From positions 2,852,001 through 2,916,000 of the forward strand of contig NC_135244.1 of the NCBI RefSeq assembly GCF_947623445.1: a stretch of DNA of 64,000 nucleotides, given 5' to 3'. Source of the stretch: Clavelina lepadiformis. Lineage: Eukaryota; Chordata; Ascidiacea; Aplousobranchia; Clavelinidae. The position numbers were made by a program, and so were the translations under genes. The notes under the pieces are model-generated. The model was not told the DNA's origin. It searched no databases and was given only the letters and a program-made list of their open reading frames with translations. The stretch's first letter is position 1. Each line of letters begins with the position of its first letter. Shown here piece by piece: positions 1 through 54,422 of this stretch.

Positions 1-1764
1 TGGTGTATGCCAAGACAGCCACAGTGCGCTAAATAAATTATATATCAAAAGCGCAACCTAGAGCACACTAGTCGCTAAAACGTGAATCGGTCCCAAAATT
101 GTTTTCGAGTTGACATATGCAACGTATGTTGACTGCCTCTCGCTCTGCTATCGTGTTACAACTTCCGTTTTTCGCGTTGAATTCTTGTAAACAACTTGTG
201 CACTCCAGCGCCTGAGCGATTTCGAAACGCTCTTAATGCCTTTTTTCTGGTTAAATTGGACCGCACGCGGTACCAGCCAACGTAAGACGTAATAATTGCA
301 GTAACGCCCTTCTAATAAAATAGCACTTTAAGCATGTATTGCGTTATTTTGATGTGCGTTACGGCGCGGTGATGAAAATTGTTAACTTCTGGTGTTATTG
401 TAAGACCAGCTGTGGAACCAATCCGCTGTTTTATAAGCCCATTTAACAAAATTTCGGATGGTGGGGTTTTGTTTTAGTTACGGTACTCTGTCGTTCGAAA
501 AAGGAAGGCTGAAAGAATTAAGCAAAATAAGATCACCCTTACGAGCGCGAAAAATGAAGTGCCGGCGCTTCAAGTGGATTGACTAGCTCGGACAATAAGG
601 GTACGACTTAGAAATTTGGCGAATAATATTTACGCCTACGAATAAAGGTACTCGGGCTTAAACTCACATCGGTTGACACAACGACTTGGTCTGAAACGCC
701 GTAACGTGCCCAGAAAAGCGGGAAAAGGCTTACTGGCACTGACATGAAAGGGTTTTGAGAGGAAAAACAACTATTGTTAGGTCTCGAAAACCGAGACCTC
801 GTCAAGATGGCAACAAGACGGCTAGAATAAACAAAGTGCCTTTAAACGGAAAATGCTTTTCAGTCGGTGGGGAAACGAAATACCACAGCGAGCAAATAAA
901 GCTCTTAACACAGGCACAAAGGCAGCCGCATTTAAAGTATATTATTTTACAAACAAAACATTGCTATTGATTCACAGCATTCTAAGCGCACTTCACAGCA
1001 AATGATAACAACGTTATACAACAGCAGCGGCCTTACCGTGCTCTGACAAAACTCAACTCACTGGCTAACGTAAACCTAGTTACCACGGACAAATTCATAA
1101 CAATCAAACTGCTAATGTCAATAAAGTCAGCCCACGGCCAAATACACCCTGTACCGTTTGCTAACTAGATGTTATAGTTTGTTATAGTTTAGTTTGATGT
1201 AACTAGATATAACCAGGCAACAAAACAATGCGCGGGAAAGACGTACAAACTAGGCCTATAACTTTACTTGTTAACGGCACATAAACATGTCGAAATACTC
1301 ACGGTTGCGAAACTTTGCAACATGTTTATAACTATCTGCACCTGCTGCGCGCAGTACTGTTCAAGTCTGGCACCAACCTACTGCATGCCATACATCATCC
1401 AATGACGTGTACTTGTTTAATACTAATAAGGCTTGTCATAACAACAAAAATGATTTATGTGGTCACAAATCAACATGTCATGCAGGTCTCAAAAGAGTCA
1501 CCTGCTGTTCTAAAAATGTTGTACGTCAATAAGTACATTGCAACACAGGTCGTGTGTAGTAGGTCGCGAAATCCTGTCAACGAGCGCCATTACTCACTTT
1601 TCTTAGCGTCTTCCTTATGAAATGCAACCTCAATTTATCAACTTTACCCTAACCTAGTTTACATCTGACGAAATGGCTAAGTTATAGTACTATGAAAGCT
1701 ACGAAACGTCTCCTAATGAACAACAACTCGATCCTTCGCTTATAATCTTGACATATTTTGATCA
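1..1764. other. No gene recognised
   Basis: The stretch holds only short open frames, most lacking an ATG start and none resembling a known family. I see no convincing exon, RNA gene or repeat in it. It could be intergenic sequence or part of a long intron of a gene outside the window. Confidence 0.4.
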
Positions 1765-5000: not shown

Positions 5001-8000
5001 CATCCCTAAAAAGGTTTGAAATATGAGCGAATAATGGCATGCGAGAAACCGAGTGTCATAATCCTAGTCTAACAGAGATGCACGCGTAAACTCTAATCAC
5101 CACAACAACACTACTCTTTGTCAAGTCAAAAGTGAATTGCTTTCATTCAAAATAAAGTTTTCTACCAGGGTATGCTGCCGAACATAAATTATTTGAAGCG
5201 GTTGCGTTCAATTTCTAAATGTTTTTAACCCTACAGTGTGTTACAAGGCAAATGCCCTATTAATATGTCTTTATTGGAGTCATTATTGCAGGCGTATGTT
5301 GCACCGTCATTCAACTTTGTTTATTGTTATCATTATCCATCGCTTATTAACCGCACGAAGCCAAATAATCAACACACCGTAAACTACCTGCTGTTCAGCC
5401 TATTATCGTTTGATTGACACAATCACGACGTTTATAGGCTATACAGCCTCCTGCATTTTGCAAAGGTTTATTGTAAACAAATAAGCAGTGAATATCCTTA
5501 ATTCAGTGCAGTTTGGATTGGAGGCGTCGGAAATAGCCTCGATACTCGATGACACGCCTACAACCCTGTATCTAGATGTTGTTTTTTAATACCAGGTCTG
5601 CCATTTTTGCTCAAGTCTTTAGAAAAACATCATACCCGATGGCAGGTCATTCTTTTGTGAGGCAACACGGTTTTATTATGACGTAAATTTTGGCGCCTAG
5701 ACTAAGAACACAGTCTCATTCCGTATATTACGTGATAAACGGAGTTTCTAAAAATTGCATGACATTTCCGTCAAACATGAAATTGTAACGTTCGTGTGCA
5801 AATTTGTAAAGGGCAAATAAAACGTAATGAATAAAATGGGGGTATTTTTAGCAAAAGTACCAATAAAACGCTCATAAAATTGCATTACAGCTTTATTTTT
5901 AAATTTAAGTTTGAATTTATCTAAAGTACGGTTTTGGCCATATAGGGTAAGTTTCGCGTTAATTGCTGATCTACTGAACGCCAGTACACAGCATAGATGA
6001 CGGAACAAAAACATACTAAATCGCAAGCCGGCTCAAAGAGCAGTTATCCTGTATAGGTGTACAAAACTGAAAACTGAATAAAACAGGGATAACAGCGACG
6101 TTTACGTGTTTCGTGACGTGAGACGCCATTGTATTTCAGAACAAACAAGGGTACTGGAAAAGGCTTTGTCGGCTTTCTTACCGTTCAAAGGTTTTGTCGC
6201 TTTTTGCCTCTCGGTAGGTTTGTATTTGTGACTGTGTGTGTGCTTGTTTTCATTTTCTTCCATTGTCTCCGAACAATTGTTGTTTGTTGGACGATGTTGT
6301 CATAATAACATTATTTCAAAACCCAAACAACTTGAAGCTAACAATAACAGATGGATGCTCTAAGTGGGCAATTCTTGTTATTCGTCCAGAAATAATGTCA
6401 TGGCGATCGCCGTATTCATCATAGATCGGTCACTGGTGCAGGACGTACGCCAATCGAAGGCAGTATGTATAATGATGATGTAATACAATTAACACATCCG
6501 ATATTATTGTTGATTACTGAAACGCCATAAGTCAACAAAGATCGTATAACATTGCTGAAACTTATTCTATTTTTAAGTAAAATTCTTTCGCCATTTCTGT
6601 CAAGTCATCGGTGATTTAATGGCCAATGACCACGCTAGAAACATTTCCAAGAACGCTGAGTACCATTTAAACACGATTTAAAATGCTATTCATATATCAT
6701 GGTTTAGTTATGCAACCGCGTTTACATAATCTTTCAATTGATGGACCTACGTTGTTTCCTGTCTGAAATCGATTGAACATTTACTCCAAACAACGGCGTT
6801 TGCATGCAGCTGACAGTAACCACTTTCTAATTTTAGAACTGAAGTGTTGTAACTTTGAATGGCACAGTAGGCTGTTGCACTTTATCATCATCTAGCGGTG
6901 GAAATTAAATGCACCAGAGCAAGAGCCAATAAGTTTGGATGTTATCTTTTTGTTGGACATTTATTGCTAGGCGTTGGCATTTATGAAGGTGACAGTTTTA
7001 CGACCACCTATTATGCAAATACAATCATTTCACTTTTACTTTGTTGTGGGTCTGCAATGGTCCTTAGGTAAACAACGTAACAGCATAAAAGTCTGGAAAT
7101 TTCAAACGCTTCCAAAATATCATGTCTATATTAAATCATGCGCAGTTTGCTATTTACATAATAGCGATAAACACTTCATAAAGGTCACGTTGTAAGCCAG
7201 ACATGCAACAACTACTTATATCGAGCCATCGTGCAAAGTTCGATTTGGACAAAACGTGACATGATATTAAATTGGCCTCTTTAACAGAACTCACGTTAAA
7301 ATGCTCAAGTCAAGTGTTTTGGACCTATTGCCGTCTTCTTGGCAAGGTGGGTAAGTCTCGGATTTCAAAAAATTACAGATTCTTGCTAAGTTTGCGAAGT
7401 ACTTGACAAAAAAACAAGGTTCCATCAGTCGCAAACAAAAAGCGTATTTGACTCATTGTTTATTTTACGGGTAGGTCCGGTTTAAGCCAACACAAACCAG
7501 ATTAAACCGGTCGTCGTTGTTCTCTCAGCCATAACAACTGTAACAGGCGTTTTGGAATTGTTTGTTTCGTCGGTGTGACGTAATAAAAGAAAGAGGAAGG
7601 CCAAACAAACAAGAGCGGCAAGGTAAACATAGGTTTAAAATTTAACTAACATTCCCGCCCAAACGAACGTGTTCAACGGTCTTAGATTTAAAAAGAAACA
7701 AAAATCTTTTTCGATAAGTATTTACAGTAAGCCTCCTAAAAACAACATAAGCAATTTACAGTCATTCTGACGTAACAGTTACCCGTCCCAGTACAACAGC
7801 GGTATGGGAGCAGTGAAATGCGTCATTCCCGTTCCAAAACTGACATTTCGTTGATTAAGAACTCTTGAAACATTCGGTTTATTGAACCGAGTGACATTTT
7901 TATGGTTAATAACTATTAGATATTAAACTATTCTCCGTCAAATCAACAGACTCCGACGTTCGCCTCGAGCCGGGCGAAACGGAAATTTTTTATCCGCAAA

Positions 8001-19796: not shown

Positions 19797-22700
19797 ATGC
19801 CCGGTTTAAACTCGTTAGAAGACAGCGGCAACCTTCGTGGATTGCCCTGGATGTTAGCTATATCTCAGGTTGGTGAAGAAATTTTTATCAAGTTACATAG
19901 AAATTTGGGGTCTAGTGCAGAAGTGCACCACCAAAGGATGTCATATTTTGTTCAGCATGTGTCTATTATACAAGTGTGACATGTGGTTGTGCACTTCCAC
20001 ACCGGACTTGAATTTTTTAATTTAAGTCACATCTGTTTTAATGTCTGTTGTTATTTCACTGGAAAGGAATCGTACCAACATTGTATAAAAGAACCTAACA
20101 TTAAAACTTGAAACGTATACGACACAAATGTAACCCAAAAATTTTCTACTACAACTAAAAATTAACCTGATTTGGATGAGCATAAATAACTTTTTGGCCT
20201 TGATAGGCGATCCTTTTTCCTACCTAGATGTAACTTTGTCACCTAATATATTTTTAACAACACATTTTGTGACCTAAATACTTTGGGTGAAATCATCAGT
20301 TCAGATTACCATAGTCCAAATACTGTAATTGCTTTGTTCGTCATCAAGCTTGTGTGCTTAGAAGCTATGGCTTAGTTTAGTATTTTTCTGTAGGCTTACT
20401 TTTTGCACATTTTCTTCAGTCACGCTATGAAAGTGTGAGGTAGCACAAATGTCTTAAATCAGTTTAATCACATTCACTTCAGGTGGCTGGTATCGCAATG
20501 GTCGTGATGATTGGAGTTTGGCTTAACACTTATCTGGGTGGATTTGCCTGGGATGGCGGCCCAAAGGAATTTAATTTACATCCATTATGCATGATCTGTG
20601 GCATGGTTTTCTTGTACGGAGAGGGTAAGATTATTCTAAACATACAATATTATCTATGAGTCATTCCATGTATAATCAACCGGGCACTGTAACCACTACT
20701 CTTGGATTTTGATAATTTCAATATATGTTAGACCTTGGAAAATCACGAAGATTAAAAAAAAAATTTTGAAAATATCTCCAGGCGTTTTCGAGTTATTCAA
20801 ATTTGAATTTTTCGCCACACGATGGCTTTTGGTTAGTGAGCACTGGTCACGCTTCATGATTTTGTTTAATATCTTTATTTCTGAAGGTAGAATAATGAAA
20901 CAAATGTCAAATTCACCATTTTTGGGGTCAAGGAATTCATTTAAGCACATAAAAAACCTATATCACACCTCCTTCATGGAGTAAATTAAGTTTTTTCATT
21001 AATGTCAAAGTTCAAGTTTACGATGCAATTACAAAAATAGCAATCGCATTGGAAACATAATTTTTGCACTTTTGTGTAGCATGGTTCATGTATTTTCATA
21101 TATCCAAAAATTGGAAACTTGTTTTTTGTGCTTTAGGAGTAAAGTTGGTTTTAACAGCAAGCACTATTTTTAGGATTCTTATAAGATATAAAATGCATAT
21201 TTGAGCAATATCGTATAACTGGTCATGAATATATGCAAGGTTGCAATTCCAAGGCACCAACTGCTAGTGTTTAAAGATTATTCACCAAAAAAATTAATTA
21301 CTGCCTGCTAATGGTGCACTCTGAGAGAGGTTACAGTAAATTAGAGTTACTTTTTGAACTTCAATTTGGCCTACTCCTATTTTGATTCTTGACCTTATTG
21401 TCATTCTCTATCGGTGTAGGCTTTCATCACTGTTTTTAAAGCTTCTGCAGTGATACTGTACGATCTTCCAGTTGTTGTAATCGGTGCAGCAACTTTGCAT
21501 AGAATTTGCTGGAAAGGAACCCAGCATACATCGTCCTTTGATGGCCAAAAAAATGTATTTGTAGGACCTGGTGGGTGCATAAACTTCACTTGGGCATGTA
21601 ACTGAGCAGTGTCGACTTCGTCGATTAATCCCATCCACCCCACCACTTTCCATCATAGTTGCAAGCTACATAGTCATTCACAGTAACTTGCAAATCATCT
21701 CTGTTGCAATGTGAAAAGTAATGAATACCTGTGAATTTGTTATCATCACTTGTTCGCTTGTATCCTATTGAAGATTTCGAAAGGGGTTGAAAATGGTGGA
21801 AAGATCGTGTTCCAGGTATTGTGCTTCCTAATAAAAACCTTGATGCCATTACAAGCCTGTCCTTTTGTAAACCTTCTGAATGCAAAAACTCGAATTTAAT
21901 TCCATTGATGTTGTCACAGCAATATTTATAGAATGCTTGTGTGGTTGTAATCTGGTCAGATGTAGGTCTTTGTAAGCTAGCTGTCTTAACCAATCGTTTA
22001 ACAGTACCTCCAACACCATCACATGGAGATTTCCCGTGACTGGTTGCAAAAAAGGACCAACACGCTTCCAGGTTGAAATCACACTTGTGATGGCACAAAT
22101 TCAGCATATTTTTATACTGTCCAGCGCAACCGTCCGAGAAATATTCAACTTTAGTAATGGTGCTGGACAAGCTTGGAATCAATGCAGTGAGTTTGTACAA
22201 AAGCCCATGTACAAAAGCTGTGTCATGTGTTAAGTCATCTGAAACAAAGCAAAATGACTGCTGCATCAAGATGTGATCTTGCATGTAATACACAACAGCA
22301 GGGTGGATTGTACATTGCTGCTGGTTCCAGTGATAGCTTTGTACTTCATCTTGGATTGTAAAAGTGTAATTCTCGGCGAAATCCAGCAAAATCACACAAG
22401 TATCATCTGTTAAAGAACTCTTTCTGGAGTTTAAGTATCTAGATTGGCATTTAGCTATGAATGAATGCTTTGTAAGATCATCCAAAACTCTTGCAATTTC
22501 TTGAATCCACTCATGTCTCGTCATTAACACTGTGATAAGATCCATCCTGTCTGTAGACTTCCATTGTTGGCATTGGACTTCATCATCAAGTTCCTCATCA
22601 TACTGTGCAAACAAAAGGCCTTCTAGTGCTTGAGACCCAGGACATTGTTCACAACGATGCAACATGCACATTTTGTTCTCCGTGCTGCACACTATTTTGT

Positions 22701-25700
22701 CAATCAATGTTTTGTATGTTTCATTGTTGTTGGCAGCAGCAACCAGAAGAATTGCATTTTGATGTTGGATGCACACACAGACAGAATGAATGCCTTTGGA
22801 CGATACGGGGACACACCATTTGGGACGGAGTGAACAAAACGTTGAGAATCCAATCTTCAGCTCAGGATATTTTTCGCAAAATGTGGCATATAATTCCTTC
22901 AAATTGCACAAAATGAGCCTCTTTTGCTTATGAACATTTTTGGAAACACTTACATAATCTTTAATTCCAGGCATTAAACGGGTAAATTCATCATTTTCAT
23001 ACATAGATGTAACTGCAGCTTTTGTGGCATCAGATATTTTGTTTCTTCCTGGAATAGTTGGTTTGGACAAAATCCCATCAGATTCTTTTTCTTTCATTGC
23101 TCGTTTAATCAAATACTCAGATTCACCAAAATTGATTGATTTGATTCACCTTAATTGACCAGGATTGGGGTTTCAGTGTGAGGAGCATTACTTTTTCATT
23201 ATATGAACTTGCACCAGCAATCTTTGTTTTGACATGTTCCATTAACAGATCTTGGTCATTTGCTTTTTTCTGCAGCAACTTGATCTCATTTGAAGTGAAG
23301 ATAGTGTTTTCATGAATTGTAATATTTTCTTCTTCCGTGCCAATAACAGTTGCAAAAGAGTTTTCTAATTTTCGTGCCACCTTTGATACTTTATCTTTTG
23401 CTTTTAGAATACGCTGTCGTTTTGGTAGACTATGTGAAGGTCCAACTGGAGACACGCCAACAGATTGAAAAGTTTCATTTAACGTTTCTTTTGCTAAATC
23501 TTGGTGAAACTGCGATTTTGGATTACAATCAAAGCTGAACTTTAAGCTGTCAGAATCACTTGTAGATGGATTTGAACTTGTTTCTGAATCACCCAAACAA
23601 TTATTATCTGTTTGAAATCTTTTGTAGCATGTCGCACAAACGCGCCATCCAGGTTTAACGCACATTGAGAGTTTTTCCATCTTTTTGGCAATTCCAAGTG
23701 TAATTACAATGCTACCTTTGGCTTTCTTCTTGTGAGATTTATAAATGTCACAACAATTTTTGAACCTGTGCTCAAATCTTGGCGCCAAAAATATCTCTTT
23801 GTGGTGCATGCATAAATTGGCTACTTGCTCTGCTTTGTCTTTCAAAGCAGTTCTCCATAACAGTAACTCTCGGTCTGCGGAACATAAACTTCCCAAAGGT
23901 ATCAATTCAATTTTTGCTGTGTATAAGGTTTTATGACAGTCTTGCTGCAACAAAACACCAATACTACAACACTCCATTTATAACAGATAAATGCTTTATT
24001 ATCATTCTAAATCTAAACAGAGTATTGTTAGTTAAAAGGAGGAGGCTAGAACTATTATAGGCCTATAGTTGCTATTTTCCCCGTAATCAGGTAGACCAAT
24101 CCAATACCTGTATTTCTCTTTTTTTATCTCTACAAATCTACTGCAGATGCTAGTTCTGACAATAATGCAAGGCTACTATTGCACTAATATCTGCTCAAAA
24201 TTGAGCCTATGGTAAATGATAAAACACTTCAAATAAACTTTTGAATTAAAAAAACTAGAACCAATAGACTAAACATTTAGATTCTTGCTGGGCTTTGAAA
24301 TTGAAACAAAAATCAAAACTCTTAAGTATTTTCCAATGATTGTTAAAGGTCAGGCAATTGCAATACAGTACTGATATACTAAAAGTATTAGGTTTTGCCA
24401 GATTGCCATAGGCTAGCCAAATTGCTCATTGGTCCCTTATATCATTTTCAATTTGCAGAAAAATATCTAAGCCATTTCATCAAAATCAAGTTGACTCAAA
24501 CTTGATATCATAAAAATAGTGCTTGCTGTTAAAACCAACCAAACCAAAAAACAAGTTTCCAATTGTTGGATATATGAAAATACATGAACCATGCTACACA
24601 AAAGTGCAAAAATTATGTTTCCAATGCGATTGCTATTTTTGTAATTGCATCGTAAACTTGAACTTTGACATTAATGAAAAAACTTAATTTACTCCATGAA
24701 GGAGGTGTGATATAGGTTTTTTATGTGCTTAAATGAATTCCTTGACCCCAAAAATGGTGAATTTGACATTTGTTTCATTATTCTACCTTCAGAAATAAAG
24801 ATATTAAAGAAAATCATGAAGCGTGACCAGTGCTCACTAACCAAAAGCCATCGTGTGGCGAAAAATTCAAATTTGATTAACTCGAAAACGCCTGGAGATA
24901 TTTTCAAAATTTTTTTTTTAATCTTCGTGATTTTCCAAGGTCTATATAACATATATTGAAATTATCAAAATCCAAGAGTAGTGGTTACAAATTTTTAAAA
25001 AATTGGTTGATTATACATGGAATAACTCCTATGTTAAGTTCGGTGAATTGTTTTCATTGGTTTCTGTTGTGAAAAATATTCCTATACCATATTCAATTGA
25101 ATTAATTAATTATTTATAAGAAAGAATTATATATATTCTTTTATGTATTGGTACAGTATTTAGTTGGTTTGTATTTGTTTTTAGTGAACATTTAGAACTC
25201 TTGGAAAGCTGTTAGTTACATGCTTATGATCATTGCAATGCCATCGAATCAATAAATACTTTTCTTTTCAGCCGCCCTGGTTTACAGAGTCTTTCGCAAC
25301 AGTCGAAAGCTGAAAGTCAAGTTAATCCATGCTGGATTATTATTTTTGGCATTTTTCGCAATCATAATAGGTGCGTTACTTCTGTAGTTACTTGGTCTAT
25401 AGACTATATCATAGTTACAACCCAATACCTAAACTTGTTAATTAATTTTATTTTATTTAACTGTATAAATTTTATATTGTGCAAATATTGTGTTATTAGT
25501 GTGTTGTTGGTCATGTCATGTTGTAACCAGTACTCAGCAATACAATACTTGCATCATTTTCAGGACTTGTAGCAGTGTTCAGTTTTCACAGAGCAAATAA
25601 CATAGCTAATTTATACAGCCTGCACAGTTGGTGTGGAATTACGACGGTGATAATGTTTTGTTTTCAGGTAACTGTTTTTCTATTTTTTGCAATACTTGGT

Positions 25701-34201: not shown

Positions 34202-36231
34202 TGCTAGACCAGTGGTTCCCAACACGTTTTTAAGGCGACCCATTTTTAAAAAAAATTCAGATTTATAAAATCTTGCGACCCAAGTAAATTGTCGTATGAT
34301 TTTAAAAGTTACACAAGATTGCGTTGCAAATACACAGCACTTCAAAAGCAGCAACTTTTTCTGAAAATAATATGTTTATCAATTCATATATCACACCAAT
34401 GAGATAACTGTGCTCGCTTGCTGTGAGTGAGTTTTTGAAATCGAGGCTTATTTTACTTTAGCATAGCCGCAAATCGGCTTCAACTTTCAGACGGTTTCGC
34501 TGTTTAGTTTTCAATGCACACATGGCGCTAAATCCAGTTTCACAAAGCCAAGTTGTTGTAATTGAATCAGTTTTTGAATCACAAATTTTGAAACTATGGG
34601 ATACACTTTGTGCATGGAAGCAGAATATTTGGGTTATTTGTCTTTGAAGGACGCAAAAAGAATACGATTTGCTGCTTCTGTCGTCATGTCCATAAACTGT
34701 TCTGCTACATGGATGGGAAGTTGAGACAGGTCCTTTCCTGCAAATGGATCAATTATCAAATCATTTTGGCTATTAGGTGTTGGAGATTCACCATAGTAGT
34801 GCACAAACTTTTGGGCAAGTTGTTCCAAGTGTCCAATTATAGTTTGCTTGATATCAACTTCCTTGCCACAAATATATTGCGTTAGCTCAGGAAACATATC
34901 GTACTCATTTCTAGTGACAAAACTTTTCCAGAGTACGAGTTTTTTGTTGTAAGCAGAAACTTTGGCGGCGTGATCAATCACCGTAAAACAATTTCCTTGC
35001 AAAGATAAATTTCGAGAATTCATTCAGTCAAATACAGTATGTCGGCAAGGTAAGCAACTTTTGCGTTGAAATTTTCTTCCCAAAAACTTCTCGGCTAATC
35101 CTACATAGTTGTGTTGCTTCAGGAAGATAGCAATCTCCTCCCGGAAACCACAAACTCGCTTTAAGACACGACCTCGTGACAACCATCGCACTTCCGTGTG
35201 CAGCAGCAGAGCTTGATAATCCGAATCCGTGTCAGTGCACAAAAAGGAAAACAAACGCTGATTTAGTGGCCTTGCTTTGATGAAGTTTACACACTGCACA
35301 ACATTATTCAACACTTCGTGCGGCTCCCAAGACATATTTTTTGCAGCAACGGCCTTTCTGTGGAGAAAGCAATGAGTCCACAAAACATTTGAGGCTTTGT
35401 CTTTGATTCGTTTTACCACACCAGACTTGATGCCAGTACAAGCTGCTGCGCCATCGGTGCAAATGACAGCACATTTATCCCAAGGAATGGAATACTCCGT
35501 AAAGAAATAATCCAACAATTGAAAAATATCTTTACCTTTGGTGTGCAGTTTTAGTGGTTTGCAAAATAGCATATCTTCATTCATACAGCTTCATTGTTGA
35601 TAAAGCTGATAAAGACGGAAAGTTGGGGCAAACATTCAATGTCGGCAGATTCACCCAATTGAATGGAATAAAAGGATGAAGAAATTTCATTTAACTCTTC
35701 ACTTTCTCTCTCACCAATCATTATTTTTACTACTTCTTTCATAACTGGCATTATCAACTTCTCACCATCTGTAGTTTTTCTGCTTAGCAATTTGATAGGC
35801 CGCAACATACGAAGAGTAAACAGCAACGGTTGTTTTATCACTACTTTTTTGATCTTGAATCGATTTCAACTTGCTCTTAAAAAATTCAACAGGCTTATTC
35901 ACACAGTTTGGATCATTTGCGGATTGCATGAAATAAGTTCACACGACGCGCTTAAAACTTTTTCACTGCGGGAGCTCTTTGTACCACAAAATGCAACTGA
36001 TGCGAAATTACTCAAGCGTCACGCAGAACAGCTTTCTCATTTCACGACATAAAATGCTTCATGTCTTGGAGTTTATATTTTCAAGTTTTGTGATCTCTTC
36101 AAGTTTTCAATTTTTTTATTGTAATTTTTCGCTCAAGATACAATATGCCTAAAAAGCAAGCGACCCAAAACAATAACCTGGCGACCCAACTTTGGGTCGC
36201 GACCCATGCGTTGGGAACCACGGTGCTAGAC
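34202..36231. mobile_element. Decayed hAT transposon (2014 bp) with 8-bp target duplication
   Basis: The element spans 34210-36223. It opens CAGTGGTTCCCAAC, and the right end is GTTGGGAACCACGG. TGCTAGAC flanks it on both sides (34202-34209, 36224-36231). Subterminal GGCGACCCA motifs are also inverted. It encodes a broken transposase on the minus strand. The perfect duplication shows it inserted as one unit here. Confidence 0.92.
34400..36050 (-). pseudogene. Remnant hAT transposase (ZBED5/FAM200/GTF2IRD2-tail type)
   Basis: Read right to left, the fragments are: a degenerate N-terminal part (36050-35850, with NKPVEFFKSKLKS-like sequence and stops); 35841-35581 (EKLIMPVMKEVVKIMIGE, then an internal loss); 35584-35024 (CAVICTDGAAACTG, THCFLHRKAVAAK, HTEVRWLSRGRVLKRV); 35023-34634 (YDMFPELTQYI); and a C-terminal hATC piece in another frame near 34560-34400 (LCETGFSAMCALKTK). 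This is the domain order of the hAT transposases that gave rise to ZBED5- and FAM200-like genes. Several stops and frame changes, and no single frame above 190 codons, show it is dead. Its job would have been excision and insertion of the surrounding element. Confidence 0.9.
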
Positions 36232-36625
36232 CTACCTACTCGAATTGTGACGTCATCTGGTTGTGCACTTGTATAATTAATAGACCCCCATTAGCGTCCT
36301 TAAGGTGCCTTTATTGCACAAAATCATTATATGTGGTTAAAATAAAATTCAATCAGTCAAGTGATCAAGTGATAGCCATACACAAATAACACAATAGGTT
36401 ATCTTCCTGATAATAAAAGACTATGAAAGAGGCACACTACAAATCTAACTGTACAAATAAGGAAAATTAGCGAAAAGTAACTATCCGCTCACCAATACGT
36501 GTGTGATATAATTATATACTGTGCAGTATATTAGCACAATAGGTTGGTCAGAAGAAATCATTGCACCGTTGTACGGCAATGTAAAAATAACAAACATTAC
36601 CAAAACGAAACTGGCAAATGATGTA

Positions 36626-36902
36626 CTGTATTTTACGGACCATAAGGCGCATCGGACTATAAGGCGCATTGTCAATAAATTGCTTTGATTAGTTTTTTGT
36701 TCATACATAAGGCGTATCGGACTATAAGGGCATATGGCTATAAGGCACATGTGTTACCGTATAAAGCTCATTAGAATACGTTGTGAGCATGCGCATACGC
36801 ATTATGATCCATACATTAGGCGCACCGGCTTATAAGGCGCACGATCAATCTATGAGGAGAAAAAAGGATTTAAAGTGCGCCTTATGGTCCGTAAAATACG
36901 GG
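36626..36902. mobile_element. Unclassified MITE with repeated ATAAGGCGCA units
   Basis: It opens CTGTATTTTACGGACCATAA and closes with the inverse complement, TTATGGTCCGTAAAATACGG. Inside there are further copies of a GGACTATAAGGCGCA-like unit in direct and near-direct order. I cannot see a clean target duplication, so the superfamily is open. It lies just past the stop codon of the minus-strand gene ending at 36945, so it may be in that gene's 3' untranslated region. Confidence 0.7.
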
Positions 36903-36944
36903 AATTTTTACTCGTTATACATATAACACTGAATCACGAACAAA

Positions 36945-39900
36945 TTACCAATCTACTGTTCTATGTGTTGGTTCAGCAAAGTGCAAATGTTCCTCATTTT
37001 CACATTTTTCCGTTGTCACCAAAAGAACTAAATTGTTTTCTGCCAGCTCCAAATTACTATAAAGAGCAACAAGTATAACAGAAAGCGCACAGCGTAAAAT
37101 TTGCAATGTAATCCTTTTATGCATGCAAAGATTACAGAAATCCCATCACTTACCCCCTTTTCATAATTATAATATTTTCTTGCTCATCTATAATTTTCTG
37201 GCAATCGACTGGACCATAACTGCCGGGATTTCGAAAGGGGATTCCACAAGGCATTCCAGTGATGCTGAACTCGTTAATTTTAGCATACGGCATACGTCCA
37301 TTGGATTTGTGCGTTGTCTCACCTGTAAAGCACCAGAGCAAAGATACCAAGGCATGCACAAACACAACTTAATATAATTAAGATGAAACAATTAGCATCA
37401 ATTCTATTGTATTACATTCTATTGCTTGGAAAAATACGCAACACTAATAATAAAATTTTTTATTTCACACCGTTAGGCTAAAGCAGGCATGCACAACTCA
37501 AAACAGTACACGGGCCGTTTTAGGGAAAAAAAATTTTCGCGGGCCGCGTGCTAACATTGTTGTAACTAACGTGTAGCCTACTTTATATAATGTGACCGAT
37601 TAACCGTCGAATAAGAGATATTATTGAGAAGATGGTTACTGTCAAGAGACGGTTGCCTCTCGCACTACAGTATGTAGTTGTTTTTAACGCTTATCGGCGG
37701 TAAAGCATCGGATTCGTTGATTATGTAACTGTAACCGAAATCACGGAATATTTCGTGGGCCGTATGTTGTGCATGCCTGGGCTAAAGAAAGACAATTTGT
37801 TGGCATAAAAAGACTTACAATATTTCTTATTAAAAATTTTTCGAACTTTCATTTGCAATTCGGTGTTTTTTTGTCTTGAAGTACTGCAAGCTGTATACAA
37901 ATATATAGCATACGTTACTTCTAATGAAAATTTTTTCATACTTTATGATTAACATGATTCATAATGACACTAATATCATTCAGGTTCATATGCAAAAAAA
38001 ATCTTCAATGAATTAAAGTTAAAAAATAAGTGCTATAAAAGTTCCTTTTAATATATGCTTGCAGTAAATGTAACTGTAGTTAATCATGTTCTTGCAAATG
38101 TTTAGAAATATCACAGTAAATTACATAAAATTACCTTTTCCGCAATGTAATATCTCAATAAAGCCACTTTCAACACTTGGCTCCAAGAAATATGGCCTTA
38201 CATCCCTGCTTCCGAATGCATTGAATGTATCGTTAACAAATGCCATTCCACCAACGGCCACACCAATTTCCTCAAGTTCACCACACTAAAACAGGAACAA
38301 GTTACCTTTGTTTCGTGTACAGCACGGTTACACCATAGTATAATATGAACAGCAACATACAGCTTGAATTATTCGAGCAATGGCATTTTGTCTAAGTTTT
38401 TTTTTTCATATTTCCATCCATTTCATTTGGTGGCATGGAACTTTCAGAATTGAAGGTCTTTGCTTTCTCTTTCCAAACTTGTTTCGTTTGCTTCGGAAGT
38501 TCTCTCCACCTGCTACCCCAGAGTTTGAAATCTTGAAAAACAGCAATTAAAAATTAGTACAGGACATTTGAAAGCTTTATAAAAAAATGAACATAAATTG
38601 AAAGTAAGAAACACTGAAAACAGGCAAGACCTTACTTCATGCAAAACACTTTGATAACTTGTCTAAACTAGTACTTTCATTGTTCAGCTGTTAACATAGT
38701 GAAACCTTCATTTATGTAAATTTTGAAGTTGAGTAGAAGCTTACACCTCTCAAGATTTAACAGCGTCAATCAATGTTAACATCTTCGATATCTAAGGCTT
38801 TCTAATAACCAACATAACAGTAAACACATTTTTGGAAATTCATTACACACGTATCATGTGAGGTCACAAATAGCATGCACTTCAAGTCTATCATGCTCTT
38901 CACTAATCGAACTAACACTGTGACACAAGTTTCACAATCAAACCGAGAAAAAAAAAATTACGACATGCAAATTTAGTAACGAACACAGTAAGCATGAAAT
39001 CAATGAATGCAATTTATCAGGTGAAAAACAATGAAAATTATTTTCAGTGAGAACTACATTTGTGCATTTAACGACATAATGCTAATGACTCAATGAAGCA
39101 AGCGATCAAGCAAACCAGCCAGAATATCAGACCTTGTACATATCTTAAAGGAAACACATGTGATGCTGTCTAGAAGCTTCTCCCTTGAAAATTTGGGAAG
39201 AAATCATGCAACTGTATTAAAAATACCAATATTCTGTTTCTTAATGGAAGAACAAAATAGATTGTAGCCTGTGAATCTTCGTTTTCGAAAAGGTTTAACT
39301 TTTTGAACCCTTGGCCTTATTGATGCATTGTAATTGTAAATCCAGCGCTAAAACACAGCAGTTGGCAAAACGCTAGTAAACAAGCGTCAAAAGTATTTAG
39401 TAGTGGCAGTTTAACATACCATCATACAAGAGATCTGAGAAAGGGACAAACTTTAATCATTTTGTAAGATCATGCAATAAACATGCAATAACTACTTTAA
39501 GTTGGAGAGTTGTCCCGGACAAGGAACGAAGCTTTTTGTCAGCCAACAAGATTATTTTGGAGAAGACAACTGTTACAACTGACAAACTTAAAGTACGTAA
39601 TGGCATCTTTCAACCTTGATTTGGTTTTTACTTAAACCAGTATTAATGGTTGCTTCATTGAGGTGCTCTGACTTTGCAGTTCTCATACCTTTTGTTTCCC
39701 ACAAAGATATAAGCATATCCCGTTGGCTTTGTGAAATGTCCTTACTGAACAATGCAAATCAAATTATTAATAAGTGAGACACAAAAATTTTTTTTTTTAA
39801 ATTGAAAATACAGGTTGTCTGTATCTACACGAAATATCTTACGTCCATCTGGACGGCAATTTAGAATAGCGTTTTATTAACACTTTTAGTGACTTGTATG

Positions 39901-40777
39901 CAAATAAACAGAGTGACATGAAAAAAATGCCATACTAACAATTACTTATTTATGACCAAAGATCGAATTAAACATACAACAGATATATACATATAAGTTA
40001 GCTATTATACATGAAGAACTAACCGAGATCTTCTAGTGCTTGCCATGTTACTCAGAAAAGAGCAAATAGTACAACAAAATTTTAACAATTTTACAAAAAT
40101 TAAAACATGCAATAAACTAAACTGTTTGGATAAAAATGGATAGTTTTGTAAGAAGTAATCACCACTCAATATGAATTAAGAATAGAACATACACTCATAA
40201 AGATAGTCATCCTAATAAATAATATAACTTAGGGCACATGTTGCAATAAAAGCAAACGCTCAACACTAAAGTCTTACAGATGTCAAAAATTTACTGTGCA
40301 CAGATATGATTTTCTTGGTGCTTGGTAATCAACAGTAAGCGCCATATTTCAACTGCAACTCCTTTTCAAATCATAAAGGCTTTAAAGATTATCAAGAAGT
40401 TTGGCCAACCCTTTTATGTATATGGTACACGTAAGTCTTTTCCTACAGCACTATAGTATTACAATATCACAATGTTCTTTAGGCTAATAGCTTATATGCA
40501 CATACTTTGATGTGAATTAAACACTTAATCTGTGAGGTCATTGTCTGTCTCAGCAAAACAAAGTTATGGGCATTGATGCTATAAAAATGTAAAAATATAA
40601 GCGATAGTAGCTGTGACATGAAATGACAAATGTTCCAAATCAATATACTTGATATTTGTTTGTAATAAGCGATTGTTTTTCGGAGTAAATAGCCATTTAT
40701 CTGCACAACTTCTTTGACCAGATTTTTGTTTAAATAGGCCATTCTTGAATGCAGTTGAGAATAAATTGCCAACATTA
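36945..40777 (-). CDS. Homeodomain-like / HMG-box-like / TFII-I-repeat protein, 5' end unresolved
   Basis: A predicted nuclear DNA-binding protein. Exons on the minus strand: 39744-39615, 39347-39227, 38531-38361, 38285-38135, 37322-37154, 37056-36945 (stop TAA); an earlier exon at 40777-40649 fits in phase but is tentative. Order of domains: a homeodomain-like segment (SQSQRDMLISLWETKG ... TGLSKNQIK, joined to RWIYNYNASIR as recognition helix); an HMG-box-like segment (RRFTGYNLFCSSIKK joined to LWGSRWRELPKQTKQVWKEK); a linker; then a GTF2I-type repeat (MPYAKINEF, GMPCGIPFRNPGSYG, KIIDEQENIIIMKR). Phases agree at every junction except inside exon 38531-38361, where a run of ten A's puts the frame off by one. 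The 39615 donor is weak (AAG|GTTGAA). A hAT MITE lies in the intron between 37322 and 38135. No start codon was found. I cannot name an orthologue. Confidence 0.65.
37476..37787. mobile_element. hAT-type MITE (296 bp) in an intron of the minus-strand gene
   Basis: The element spans 37484-37779, opening CAGGCATGCACAACTC and closing GTTGTGCATGCCTG. GGCTAAAG is duplicated on both sides (37476-37483, 37780-37787). Internal GGGCCG motifs near both ends are inverted. It is non-coding. Confidence 0.9.
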
Positions 40778-42202
40778 CTGTTCAAAGTGGATGGCTTTTA
40801 AGAGGTGGCAAGTTGTTTACAAGCACTTTTAAGAGGATGTTTTAACTAAAATCCATTATATCATATATATTGTAGTAACCGGTGCCCTTCAAAAACTTTG
40901 CTAATCGTAACTTTCTTAATTGAAATGTTTGGTCTGAAAAGCATACAAAGTAGGTGGCTTCAGGAAGAAATTGAGTTTTATTTTGAAAACGTTACACCAA
41001 AATGAAGTGCTGTTTTCAATCCTCGCAGAAAAGCAATCGTTTAGACAACAACAACCTTTTATTTGTCGTAATTTTGATGGCAGCCACTTGAGATGGTTGC
41101 TTTCGCATGGACTAAGATTCAAATCAAGAGCACTAGAGCCAAAGTACACATTTCAGTAATAACTCTAAACATTCTCTTGGAAAGGTAGAACAAATCTTAC
41201 TGACACTTTTTAGTCGGAGGTAGTGGTATATTTTGAAATAATTTGAAGAATATGTAAAACAGATGATAAAAAAGTCAAGACAGGCTTCAGAATTTCATGG
41301 TCCCAAACTAGGGTAAAGTTGGTACAACAACAACAAAGGTCAGTAAAGGGGTACACATGAAAAAACGTTTCCAAATTAAACAACTTCATGCATTATGTAT
41401 TTACTTCCAAGTAAAGTTTCTCCCAAAATAGCCAAGTTTCAGTCATTCACAATGTGCATCAAACAGAAGATTTCAGCTGGCAAACAATGTTTGGTGGTGG
41501 ATAATGTTGCATTCCAAACAAATTAAAAAATTTAAATAGTTTTAATTTAAGAATTTAAAATACGAAATCAAATCAAAATATTCTACTGTTGACAATAATT
41601 ATTACCATCAAAAAAACTCTGCATAATCTAACAAAACCTTATTTTGTCTTAAGTTAAAAAGCAATGAAGCACATTCAAAAGTAATCAATTTCGCTAAGCG
41701 CAGCATCTTACATCGATCAGCAGAAAAATTCTCGGACAGCAGTTTTTGCCACAGCGTGTGCTCTGACTTACTCTGACTGCTGGTTGGTCACTATGTTTTG
41801 TTGTCTCTCTTTAAATTATTTTCTCCTAATCTCACTTGATGCCACTACTAACAGCATGATCTGCATATCAACAAGCACTTCCCAAATGTCTGCGTTGATG
41901 CCTGTCCTTTTTGGGTACGTTTGAAAACATCCCTGATGTGTAGTGCGGTACGAACTACACAGTATCGCTTAGTGGCTTGTTTACCATAGAAGGTCTTGAA
42001 GTATATCAGCATTCTTGCTGTGACTCACATGACTGAGTAAGCGCAAACAATGTCAACAGAGCAAGTTATGTATGCTGAGCGAGTCCCCGGCAGATATGGA
42101 CCTTGCCTCATGACACATGACTGTGATAATGACAGCATCTTTGCCAATAGACTAATTGTTCTTAATGAATTGAGATAAATAATTATTATTAATTACCCAT
42201 CA

Positions 42203-42290
42203 CAGTTGAGCCAAGTGGTGAGTGAACTTAAATAACGACCCACCAAGAGATCGGGTACTCGGCCAAAAATTGGGAAACAGTGAGCTGACC
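42203..42290 (+). repeat. tRNA-derived SINE-like remnant
   Basis: TTGAGCCAAGTGGTGAGTG resembles a pol III A box, and GATCGGGTACTCGGCC about 45 bases later resembles a B box. No intact cloverleaf can be drawn, so it is a remnant at best. Confidence 0.3.
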
Positions 42291-43204
42291 CTTGGCCAAT
42301 GCATATATCCAAAATTGGAGAATAAAGCTACCAATGAGTGTTAGCATCCATTTACCCTAACACCAAGGTAGCAAAACGTGAGCTTAAAGCTAACATCAAC
42401 AGCTCACCTTGTGACACCTTGCAGAAAATTTAAATCTTTGGTCAAAAAATGACTAATGGGCATTGGGCACCAAATCTACACTGTTATAGTAAACAGCGTC
42501 CTGTGACTGGATGTAGACCTATAGGACCCCACAGCATGACAATTTTTCTGTTTTTGTGAGCATTGAACCTGCTGGGCTTCAGTGCGATAGAGTCACTCCT
42601 TACCTTGCACATTATGAAACGGAGCCACTCTGATTGCTCCTCCCGAAACTATTTGCCTCAGCAAAAAAGCAAGCCGGATAAATAAAATCAAGATACCCAT
42701 TGCTCACTGGCTCTACACTGCTAAGGATGGCGTGGGGGACTTAATTGCCTGCTATCTGGAGATGGTTGTTTAGTTTGTGTTGCCTTGTGTGCCTTTAGTT
42801 TGTGTTGTCTTGTTTCAAACATCTAGTTTGTGTTGCCAAATAACATCTTGCTCAGAGGAAGCAGGCTGATGGTAAAACAGGGATATTTTTACACAAGACA
42901 TTTATTTTCTAGAGGCCGTTTATTATCATTTTTAATTTGTAATAATCTGCAAACTCATGAATGCATATAATCGACAAATAGCACTCTTTGAGAACGATTG
43001 AAACCTTCGTTTGTTGAAAGTCAAGACAAATTAAATGATTGCCTTTTGCTTATGATCTGCATATCAGATGGATTTCCTTTTTGGAATACTACAATGTTAA
43101 GTTGCTCATTCACTCCACTCAGGATTTCGAAGTTCTCTGACAATCACACAAGATCACTGTACTCTGCAAGCTCGTTATGTAAGAAAGCAGCAATGTTGAG
43201 TAGT

Positions 43205-43330
43205 AGCCAGCTTTGTAGCCGAATGGTTAGAGCTGGCAATTAGGCAGTGTTCACTACCCAGTAGCACTATCATTGTTATGCCCTTGGGGTATTACCAATG
43301 CTTGCTCCAGTTCAGTGCTTCTGATAAACA
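43205..43330 (+). repeat. tRNA-derived SINE-like remnant
   Basis: TTTGTAGCCGAATGGTTAGAGC is a good A-box context. A weak B-box-like GTTCAGTGC follows further on. A related piece lies near 43690-43790 (GCCAGTTCAAAACACC). The region looks built from old pol III retroposons. Confidence 0.3.
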
Positions 43331-45047
43331 TACCTAAATTCAAGCAATTAAAAACATATGTGTATCATTCCAAACTTGCTTGAGAGCTAGCCAGATAAGT
43401 GGGGCTGGAGCAATTAAAGATTACCACAAAGGTTAATGGAAGCGAACTAAAATGACATATGAAGTTATACTTCTATCCTAGCCACCAAATAAAGAAAATC
43501 ATGTTGATTGCTGTGAAACGCTTTGACCTTATGCCACAGCAGTGGTATGCCACGTGTATATAATTGATGCAATCAGACCAGCTTGAAGGCAAAACTATTT
43601 CAACCTGATGCTGAATAAAAGCACCATGCAATTACCACAATTCAATTTAATACATTGCATGACCACTGCAAACCCGAAAAAGTGACTTTTGGCTACTAGA
43701 GTACCGGTCTATCGTTGGCTGGATTGCCAGTTCAAAACACCATTGTGCATTGCACTGTGCAACAATTAAGCAGTCTTTAGAACTTGCTTGGATTCTACAT
43801 TCAGTAAGTAAGCATGCAGCTATTCCAGTGCCTAGAAGCCCGAGGTAGATAACCTATATCTTGTCTACGAAACAGGACCAATTAAGCAGCGTTAATGCCA
43901 GACACACCAAACGCATGAAAGAACTGAAATCGAAAACTAGGCTATTTTGTTCATTTCAGCCTTTTCAGATTTTTAGTGAGATCCGTTTATAGTTTGTGCA
44001 AGGCATTCCAACGTGCATCAATCACTATACAAACCTTATCCATACATACCGGTATAGATCTCAGTAGTCTTCAACAGTAGCCTAACAGTAGCCTAAGCCA
44101 TCCAATCGTACCGTACGATGACCAGCCACAGCAGTTCGACTGGATTACTTATTCGACCTATCGCTCGGTTGGATTACTCATACCAACACGATTAGCCTTC
44201 CAATAATTATTTTAAGAGATGGAAATATTCTTTTTAGCCCATACGAATGGGTAATCCGTGCAATCTTTTTTCCCTTTCCTATGAGCTAATCCTTGACGAA
44301 GCGGGTGGCTATAACTATTTGCGAAGAAAATTCAAAAGTTTCCTTTTTTTAAAACCACTTAACACTAAATAATCTTAAGTTTAAATTAAACATAAGGTTA
44401 TAAAAAATATGTACAAAATTTTCAGTATAACACCTTATGATTATTCTTGCAATGAAAGGATATTTAAGATTCAGTTGCATATATATATTTTTTTATGTAT
44501 TTGAACTCTATTTATTATATACAATTATTCAAGTTTAACTTGACAATCAACATAATAATCAAATTTTAAAATGTTTTATTTCTTTTTAACTGTGGCTTAA
44601 CTTGTTACTGAAATTAGTTGTATGATATTTGTCTTATTAATTTAAAAAAAAATCTTTTTGATAGGTTTTTTCAACCGTTATACATTCCTGTAAAATACCT
44701 TTTAAGTTGTGATGAAAAGTGTTAAGTCTTTTAAGTGTTTTATTTGATGAACATTGGCAATATTGCAAAAAAACAATTAATTTTTTGATGGAAACACTGC
44801 AGGGTGTCTCAGAATTTAATTTCCACTATGACTGTATGATGTGAATTTTTCAGATTTCTGTAGTTACCGGTACCGGTAACCAGCGTATCCTAATTTACTC
44901 ACTTCGACGAAAGCCTATACCAACTGTTATCAGTTTTCACAAGGCTAGTCAGTAGTCTAGGCTATAGGCCAAGTTAACTGTGCTTTAGGCGTGTTCACAG
45001 TCTTGTTCAATCAAATCTTGGCGTTTGTAACCCACAAGCCAAATACA

Positions 45048-52157: not shown

Positions 52158-54422
52158 ATGGATCAAGACATGAGTTTCCGCTTTTTGATTCAAAAGCTTG
52201 CTGAAGGTTTGACCGATGAGAACATTCAGATGATGCAGTACCTCTGCATGGATGCTATCCCACGTGGAATGAACCTGAAAACTGCTATTGATTTCTTCGG
52301 TTACTTTGAAACAAAAGGCTGGATTAATCACGTCGATATGAGCTTCTTAGCTGAAGTATTGTACCGAATCAATCGGCATGACCTTTTGAAAAAGCTTCCT
52401 GGTGTTAAAAATCGTCGTGACTACGAAGAAAATTACCTCATGTCACAGAACAACCAAAACTTTACGCCGTTCAGGGTGGCTTGCTTTCATTTGATTGAAG
52501 AGCTGACAAAATCAGATTTTTACACTTTAAAGAATCTCTGCAGAAACAAACTGAGCGCTCGCAACTATCAGCGCTCCTCTGACATCATGTCACTGCTAAT
52601 TTGTTTAGAGGAAGAAGATTATATGTCTGATGGTGACTTGGATTTTATGCTTCAAAATCTTCGTCATCTTGACAACCAAACTCCTTATCAGATCTTCCAA
52701 CGACTGAGCCAGGGAGACACCACCATCACGCTTCCGAAAAGGCACCAGAGCTCATCATCCCTTTCCACGAGCAAACCACTCCCTTTTGGTGGTATGGGTC
52801 ATTCGCAAAGTCTTCCTCAATTTCGCTCGGACTACGTACAAGGTCCTAGTACCTCCTACCTATCAATGCAACCAGCAGTGTACAACCATGGCATTCATAA
52901 TTATGATCAGCAGCAGTTTCAAGCAAGTAGTAACTTAACTGGCTTTGCGTTGAAGAACGCTGATTATCAACCTGATGGAAAGCTGTTTGTTGAAGTCAGC
53001 AATCGAGCTTTCTCCAATATTGAATCTTCTGCTAAAACATGGCAAACAACTTACGAGGATGAACAATGTGCCAATGCTTATCATCCTTTCACGGCATACC
53101 AGCCCCGTGGTCCAAATTCTAATCTCAACAGCCAAGCATACCAGACTGGTCTTCCTTATCCCAGCAATCGAGCATATCAGCCCTGTGATCCTAATCTTAA
53201 TCCCAGCTGTCAAGTGCCTTGTGACGACTGGCTGGATGATCAAACTGATGCGAAGACATTGCAGCCTGGTAGCAATAAGCTGCCAGCGCCACGGGCACAG
53301 CCTGTAGAAATGTCTGAGCCAGCCGTTAATATTATGCGTTCATTCGAAGAGATGCAGATAGTCCCTGACGATAGCCGACAGTCTCCAAGCGTTGAAATTT
53401 CATCCGAGTTATATGATGTCGACAGTTGTGGTTACCACCCCACCAATGCTGACATGCCAAAGAATGAAACATCAATCGAGGATCACGGCATCAGTGTTTG
53501 TTGCGCCGACGGTGGTGACAGCTCAGTGGAATGCACCAGTGATAATTTTGAAGGTTTGGAAAGCTATCTGATGGACCGTCGCCCTGTAGGCCTTTGTCTT
53601 ATCATCAACAATTACTGTTTCGAGGACGCGTTTGATCAGCATGAGGCGGAAAGGAGGATGAATCTGCGCGGGAATTCATTGCCAGTGCCCAATGTCGGAC
53701 TGAAAGACAGAAGTGGAAGCAGAAAAGATGTCGAGCGAATCCAGGAATTGTTTGAGAGCTTTGGATTTGAGGTAGACGTTGAATCGAACCTCGATTCAAG
53801 GAACCTCAAAAAAATAGTGAGAGAGTATGCGCGAAAGAGCTACATTGACTACGACTGTCTAGTGGTGTTTGTCATGTCACATGGCTTGGAAGGGAGTGTC
53901 TATGGCATAGATGGCTTCCCAGTGCATTGCACCTGGATTCATAAATGCTTTAGGCCGCAATCAACCCCATCTCTTCTGGACAAGCCCAAGATGTTTTTTT
54001 TTCAAGCATGCCAGGGTGACAATCGCATGAGTGGCCACTATTTTACGCCGGCCCCTGCCTGTGAAGATGACATAGACATTGAAACAGAAGCAATTGAATC
54101 AGATTCGGCTCATACTGTCATCGCCACCCCAGTTGAAGCTGACTTTTTGATTGGCCATTCCACTGTCCCGGGCTATTTATCGTACAGAGACAAGCAAGAG
54201 GGTAGTTGGTACATTGAAACTCTCATCAAGAATTTGGAGAAATATCACGAAAAAGAAGATCTCCTGAGTATTTTGGTCAAAGTGAATCACGAGATGTCGT
54301 CAAAACCTTTCAAGCAGATGCCGATGCCAATCGCCACCCTTAGAAAGAAGATCTACTTTCGTAAAATGAGCAACAGTGCCACCATTGCAAAGGCCCTGAA
54401 TAATGAAACCGAGTATGAGTAA
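52158..54422 (+). CDS. Caspase-8-like initiator caspase with tandem death-effector domains (754 aa, intronless)
   Basis: A cysteine protease of the apoptosis pathway that would be recruited through death-effector domains to an adaptor such as FADD and cleave after aspartate. Two DED-like helical domains occupy about residues 5-85 and 102-182. A linker of nearly 290 residues follows, rich in Ser, Pro, Gln, Asn and Tyr, with loose AYQP repeats (HPFTAYQPRGP, NRAYQPCDP). The caspase domain starts near 474 (RRPVGLCLIINNYCF). Catalytic His575 (MSHG) and Cys618 (QACQG) are intact, and the substrate-pocket stretch EGSWYIETL is present. Aspartates in DIETEAIESDS are likely p20/p10 cleavage sites. Human caspase-8 is 479 residues, so the linker makes this one much longer. 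The whole reading frame lies in one exon. A gene of the caspase-8/10 group is certain; orthology to one of them is not. Confidence 0.95.
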   Translation: MDQDMSFRFLIQKLAEGLTDENIQMMQYLCMDAIPRGMNLKTAIDFFGYFETKGWINHVDMSFLAEVLYRINRHDLLKKLPGVKNRRDYEENYLMSQNNQNFTPFRVACFHLIEELTKSDFYTLKNLCRNKLSARNYQRSSDIMSLLICLEEEDYMSDGDLDFMLQNLRHLDNQTPYQIFQRLSQGDTTITLPKRHQSSSSLSTSKPLPFGGMGHSQSLPQFRSDYVQGPSTSYLSMQPAVYNHGIHNYDQQQFQASSNLTGFALKNADYQPDGKLFVEVSNRAFSNIESSAKTWQTTYEDEQCANAYHPFTAYQPRGPNSNLNSQAYQTGLPYPSNRAYQPCDPNLNPSCQVPCDDWLDDQTDAKTLQPGSNKLPAPRAQPVEMSEPAVNIMRSFEEMQIVPDDSRQSPSVEISSELYDVDSCGYHPTNADMPKNETSIEDHGISVCCADGGDSSVECTSDNFEGLESYLMDRRPVGLCLIINNYCFEDAFDQHEAERRMNLRGNSLPVPNVGLKDRSGSRKDVERIQELFESFGFEVDVESNLDSRNLKKIVREYARKSYIDYDCLVVFVMSHGLEGSVYGIDGFPVHCTWIHKCFRPQSTPSLLDKPKMFFFQACQGDNRMSGHYFTPAPACEDDIDIETEAIESDSAHTVIATPVEADFLIGHSTVPGYLSYRDKQEGSWYIETLIKNLEKYHEKEDLLSILVKVNHEMSSKPFKQMPMPIATLRKKIYFRKMSNSATIAKALNNETEYE

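Follow-up and report, generated by a model that had tools for sequence, protein, structure and literature searches.

The 64,000-nucleotide stretch of the Clavelina lepadiformis genome analysed here (the window) carries on its minus strand, between 36945 and 40046, an intron-rich spliced gene for which splice sites and reading phases define eight coding exons (Table 1). The original prediction had joined six exons in this region into a single gene with homeodomain-like, HMG-box-like and TFII-I-repeat segments, and the peptides it quoted are all encoded by the minus strand, follow the order given and have consensus splice sites. Those six exons are real, but exon 1 and exon 6 (37890-37819) had been missed, and the six-exon model is rejected, as exon 6 completes a GTF2I repeat. 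Because exon 6 is 72 nt long, omitting it leaves the frame intact. An open frame is also present between exon 1 and position 40777, and nothing marked it as coding. The full protein, taken from an open J-type copy of the gene, is 307 aa long. This gene structure is more than a chance assembly of open frames, since a second family, F2, whose protein row is 33% identical, repeats the exon order, the phases and the short basic first exon. The F2 counterpart of the first exon (MPKRQ plus a split codon, donor GTAAGC, same phase) occurs at 4 of 4 F2 loci, each of which also has one to three other candidate first exons listed.

Table 1. Exons of the gene and associated features of the element fragment in the window.
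Feature	Position	Strand	Description
KDZ element fragment	36410..44307	-	at 36410 joins unrelated sequence, where other copies continue
exon 8	36945..37056	-	C-terminal tail and stop
exon 7	37154..37322	-	remainder of GTF2I repeat (GMPCGIPFRNPGSYG)
296-bp insertion, intron 6	37484..37779		ends CAGGCATGCACAA.../...TTGTGCATGCCTG, 8-bp duplication CTTTAGCC
exon 6	37819..37890	-	72 nt; first part of GTF2I repeat (KVRKIFNKKY)
exon 5	38135..38285	-	conserved linker, unknown fold; no Pfam match above cut-off
exon 4	38361..38531	-	remaining HMG-like part; A10 run shifting the frame in the window copy
exon 3	39227..39347	-	end of homeodomain-like helix (RWIYNYN) and start of HMG-like part (RRFTGYNLFC)
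exon 2	39615..39744	-	most of homeodomain-like part, ends GLSKNQIK
exon 1	40024..40046	-	MASTRRS plus split codon, donor GT, phase 2
right terminal inverted repeat	44169..44307		element end ...GAAGCGGGTG at 44307; GGATTA/TAATCC in terminal 200 bp

Two other features of the window were recorded. On the plus strand at 52158-54422, a single-exon open frame of 754 aa matches the death effector domain twice and contains a caspase domain (Pfam E 2.4e-28 and 1.6e-53, respectively), and by these matches is a caspase-8/10-like host gene. On the minus strand at 21625-23977, two adjoining open frames of 495 and 284 aa have no Pfam match above cut-off; by eye, they look like an unclassified mobile element.

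Profile comparison identifies the part of the protein encoded by exons 6 and 7 as a GTF2I repeat. With exon 6 included, the open J-type copy matched the GTF2I family (PF02946) at 40.2 bits (E 4.5e-10, profile positions 1-70 of 75), and the F2 row matched it at 46.9 bits (E 3.5e-12, positions 1-75 of 75), giving a full-length match above the curated cut-off of 27 bits in both families and bearing out the GTF2I component of the original prediction. The score without exon 6 is 26.0 bits, below that cut-off. In a phmmer search of the PDB with the repeat, all 8 hits at E up to 1 were TFII-I and GTF2IRD1 repeats (lowest E 6.4e-7), and of the 12 hits to a profile of the GTF2I part built from four rows, 10 were structures of TFII-I type (lowest E 2.7e-10). 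An AlphaFold model of exon 7 alone was uninformative (mean pLDDT 48.4). A single GTF2I stretch was matched in the 307-aa protein, as against the several repeats that characterize the TFII-I protein family.

The remaining two segments are likely homeodomain-like and HMG-like, identities that do not reach Pfam cut-offs. The Homeodomain family (PF00046) matched the F2 row at 21.0 bits against a cut-off of 22.9, and the Pfam search gave no Homeodomain match in the window's own family; HMG_box (PF00505) scored 12.2-16.4 bits, with the F2 rows at 14.6, against a cut-off of 25.4. When four-row profiles were compared with the PDB, the N-terminal part found homeodomains in 21 of 21 hits, the top one having a whole-chain E of 0.0037 that sums two domains at E 9.5 each and the next an E of 0.021. 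The middle part found proteins that are HMG-box proteins by name in 14 of 17 hits (best whole-chain E 0.0078, best single domain 0.33). The proposal of one gene with three segments is thus upheld strongly for GTF2I, while the profile searches that the original prediction had suggested for the other two segments give matches that all fall below the curated cut-offs.

A search of the genome (209 Mb, 95 contigs) with exon-joined proteins as queries revealed that the gene is one of many. Nine contigs (C1-C8 and C12) carry 24 closely similar copies. Another four, older, are 67-72% identical in their best exons, and nine loci belong to F2, a distant family with about 40% identity over the GTF2I part. 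The copies compared are about 96-99% identical to the window at the DNA level, introns included, and since identity continues through introns, they must have spread as DNA. One C1 and one C2 copy show 100% identity across 4,767 bp on the upstream side and 3,685 bp on the downstream side, as do one C1 and one C4 copy across 5,919 bp; identity over kilobases argues that movement was recent. When nine other copies were checked exon by exon, three were open through exons 2-8, the extent that these loci covered, and the gene was broken in the other six in four different ways. Seven of the 24 copies, the window among them, have an exon-4 frame of 53 aa where 74 aa is usual, and the shift in the exon-4 A run was confirmed directly in the window and one other copy. 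Copies with the 53-aa frame occur on C5, C1, C2, C4 and C8, and some are 100% identical over kilobases.

A GTF2I family search of the genome with E up to 10 gave 31 matches, 30 of them in the two transposon families and one elsewhere (C3:14652749). The last is a GTF2I-like exon (L094, G000:C3:14651801-14653400, positions 919-1095, plus strand) that scores 27.5 bits on its own frame against the cut-off of 27; it lies outside both families, no KDZ exon was detected within 15 kb of it, and it could be part of a host gene, a member of a third family or a remnant. A scan of viral contigs with A1 gave 336 pattern matches and no relatives.

The boundaries and remaining content of these copies are those of a DNA transposon. 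The terminal 121 bp of the window copy (44189-44309) matched 40 scored places among 138 candidates. Thirty of the 40 form 15 inverted pairs spanning 19,879-21,323 bp, and the other 10, the window among them, are unpaired. Complete units are therefore 19.9-21.3 kb long, with ends CACCC...GGGTG and inverted repeats of about 139 bp that are 95-97% identical over that length in the two pairs aligned; the length given for the window's right repeat is that of two other copies. Of the 8 pairs examined at both ends, 7 are flanked by a perfect 7-bp target-site duplication; the remaining pair, C8:7635779/7655683, has none. On the opposite strand of complete copies, one exon matches the KDZ transposase domain (PF18758) at 39.1 bits against a cut-off of 26.6, and two further KDZ exon pieces score 26.1 and 18.5 bits, below it. 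CxC2 (40.1 bits) and CxC1 (34.5 bits) modules, both above cut-off, also lie opposite to the GTF2I-containing gene. The transposase domain, CxC module and defined ends with target-site duplications that mark the KDZ superfamily are all found here, and we conclude that the gene is very probably the second gene of a two-gene KDZ (Kyakuja-Dileera-Zisupton) DNA transposon of about 20 kb, encoding an accessory protein. Between the two genes of one complete copy (L071, about 6574-7034, minus strand) are short frames that by eye resemble reverse transcriptase, perhaps an old nested retroelement.

The window itself holds an incomplete unit. The KDZ transposase domain is absent from it, and there is no window counterpart to any of the 9.1 kb compared from L071's other part, which lie inside its outermost 3.5 kb. 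The A10 run makes window exon 4 171 nt long instead of 170 and shifts the frame, so that the joined protein is not encoded by the window copy. The 296-bp insertion in intron 6 is absent from the other aligned copies and presumably represents a hAT-type miniature element. Truncated and frameshifted, the window copy is a fragment that probably has no function. Just beyond the point at which it breaks off, further frames on the minus strand, at 35024-35584 and upstream to about 36250, are by eye a candidate hAT-type transposase; in Pfam they gave only a sub-threshold, unrelated match.

The transposase and accessory genes travel together. A KDZ exon lies within 15 kb of 31 of the 38 GTF2I loci, in every one of the 31 on the opposite strand and downstream, in a table that merges several exon hits of one copy into one row. 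The seven loci lacking such an exon are the window copy, C2:15130171 (beside a 200-N gap), four F2 loci and C3:14652749; conversely, 4 of 35 KDZ loci lack a neighbouring GTF2I locus. The 31 paired loci are related copies rather than 31 independent events, and on sequence comparison the weight of the pairing lies in its recurrence across three degrees of divergence, represented by the main family, the older copies related to it and F2. In F2, the C-terminal KDZ exons hold the same tail-to-tail position and are 29-43% identical to those of the window's family. Between copies, dN/dS over exons 2-5 comes to 0.24, 0.34 and 0.30 within the main family and to 0.21 within F2 (Fisher P 0.018, 0.015 and 0.002 for the three pairs tested), values that come from related copies and small counts (6-9.5 synonymous and 6-13.5 non-synonymous changes) and that indicate that the accessory protein evolves under constraint. 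Comparison of the main family with F2 is saturated at synonymous sites.

We weighed this assignment against other readings of the gene. The likenesses to GTF2I, homeodomain and HMG parts could be fortuitous, and the sub-threshold homeodomain and HMG scores and poor single-domain E-values of their top structural hits lean that way; however, the exclusive recovery of homeodomains in one profile search, the predominance of HMG-box proteins in the other, and the GTF2I matches in two families and in structures make chance extremely improbable, and for the GTF2I part the E-values of 4.5e-10 and 3.5e-12 together with the 10 of 12 structural hits refute it. A single host gene for a novel kind of transcription factor, as the original prediction proposed, would fit the good splice sites and the copies that stay open through exons 2-8. 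It is practically excluded by the dozens of dispersed copies, their inverted repeats and target-site duplications, and the frameshifted and truncated state of the window copy; at the window locus, the 15 inverted pairs, the 7-bp duplications and the KDZ pairing at 31 of 38 loci rule it out. The suggestion of an independent transcription factor thus gives way to an accessory gene of a multicopy KDZ transposon, broken in the window. It is also very unlikely that a host transcription factor gene was captured recently, and in this genome only, as a passenger of a KDZ element. The GTF2I, homeodomain and HMG parts are of a kind usual in host regulators, and one GTF2I locus, L094, is without a detected KDZ neighbour, yet the gene pair persists in two families with only 29-43% identity between their transposase pieces, so any capture would have to be old. 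Moreover, the 31 genome-wide GTF2I matches form no cluster resembling a multi-repeat TFII-I gene, although introns could hide one.

If the gene is the KDZ element's own second gene, the element termini offer a clue to its role. The most enriched hexamer in the terminal 200 bp is GGATTA/TAATCC, which has four sites there, compared with three across about 13.6 kb of the element that lie outside the gene (Poisson P 2.5e-7, uncorrected, among fewer than 200 hexamers). TAATCC is a target of Bicoid-type homeodomains, and homeodomains that bind it have Lys at residue 50. By eye count, F2 has Lys at this position of the homeodomain-like part and the window family Tyr, and because of this Tyr the fit to TAATCC is imperfect. 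A DNA-binding helper of transposition could work as follows: the homeodomain-like helix-turn-helix would read the repeated GGATTA/TAATCC sites in the termini, the HMG-like part would bend DNA, and the GTF2I repeat would contact DNA or the transposase, so that the accessory protein would bring the transposase to both element ends. Myb/SANT-type second proteins are thought to act as helpers for Harbinger-type elements. We give a helper role about an even chance; the broken accessory genes in 6 of 9 copies and the short exon-4 frame in 7 of 24, several of them recent insertions, count against it. Because several copies with the 53-aa frame are recent insertions, their state suggests recent movement with the protein either supplied in trans or dispensable. 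The protein might instead regulate transcription of the element or counter its silencing and take no part in cutting and joining, a role that we consider possible but incline against. TFII-I proteins act in transcription, which favours such a regulator. So does the presence in other KDZ elements of TET/JBP genes thought to counter silencing (PMC12730594). The enriched sites sit in the terminal repeats, a placement compatible with either role.

Placed beside known systems, the element combines familiar and new parts. Excerpts of the paper by Kojima (PMC12730594) describe fungal Kyakuja as having 7-bp duplications and CA...TG ends without terminal inverted repeats, and Zisupton as making 8-bp duplications. 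Judged by these excerpts, our element shares with Kyakuja-type KDZ elements the KDZ domain, the CxC module, the 7-bp duplications and the CA...TG ends, but has terminal inverted repeats of about 139 bp where fungal Kyakuja has none, and differs from other KDZ elements in that its second gene encodes GTF2I, homeodomain-like and HMG-like parts instead of TET/JBP (PMC12730594). With Harbinger-type two-gene elements (Nuwa, in the same excerpts; PMC12730594) it has in common the plan of a transposase and a separate, probably DNA-binding protein, whereas the transposase superfamily differs and the DNA-binding modules are unrelated. KDZ transposons are already known; searches of open-licence PMC papers yielded no accessory gene in which a GTF2I repeat is joined to homeodomain-like and HMG-like parts, and such a gene is apparently undescribed there.

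A link between TFII-I gene names and DNA transposons has been reported in another form. DNA transposons have been misannotated as GTF2IRD2 on account of the hAT transposase fused to mammalian GTF2IRD2, and non-mammalian GTF2IRD2 matches align only at the hAT part, as stated in excerpts of PMC10641963. Both cases connect a TFII-I gene name with a DNA transposon, but here the GTF2I repeat itself sits in a KDZ element. An excerpted table of human genes with tunicate orthologues lists GTF2IRD2 and GTF2IRD2B (PMC11203038), and these entries may reflect the hAT part.

With the TFII-I family (GTF2I, GTF2IRD1 and GTF2IRD2) the accessory protein has a full-length GTF2I repeat in common; it differs in having a single repeat, linked to homeodomain-like and HMG-like parts, and in being borne by a transposon. 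TFII-I proteins have an N-terminal leucine zipper. That the gene might be an early relative of GTF2I, as first proposed, holds at the level of the domain (E 4.5e-10), which may have passed from host to transposon or from transposon to host. The latter direction would have the vertebrate TFII-I family descend from a KDZ accessory protein that was adopted by the host early in vertebrates and whose repeat was later duplicated in tandem, a course of events that we consider unlikely but that provides a testable hypothesis for the origin of the family.

GTF2I and its kin are deleted in Williams-Beuren syndrome, and the repeat they carry is best known from vertebrate TFII-I regulators. Here a complete GTF2I repeat is found within a mobile element of an invertebrate chordate, which raises the question of the domain's history in mobile DNA. 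The finding also indicates that a KDZ transposon can include a second gene that is conserved and probably encodes a DNA-binding protein, and it cautions that a GTF2I hit in an invertebrate genome may belong to a transposon. With copies that are partly identical and recently moved, the C. lepadiformis elements would offer a tractable system.
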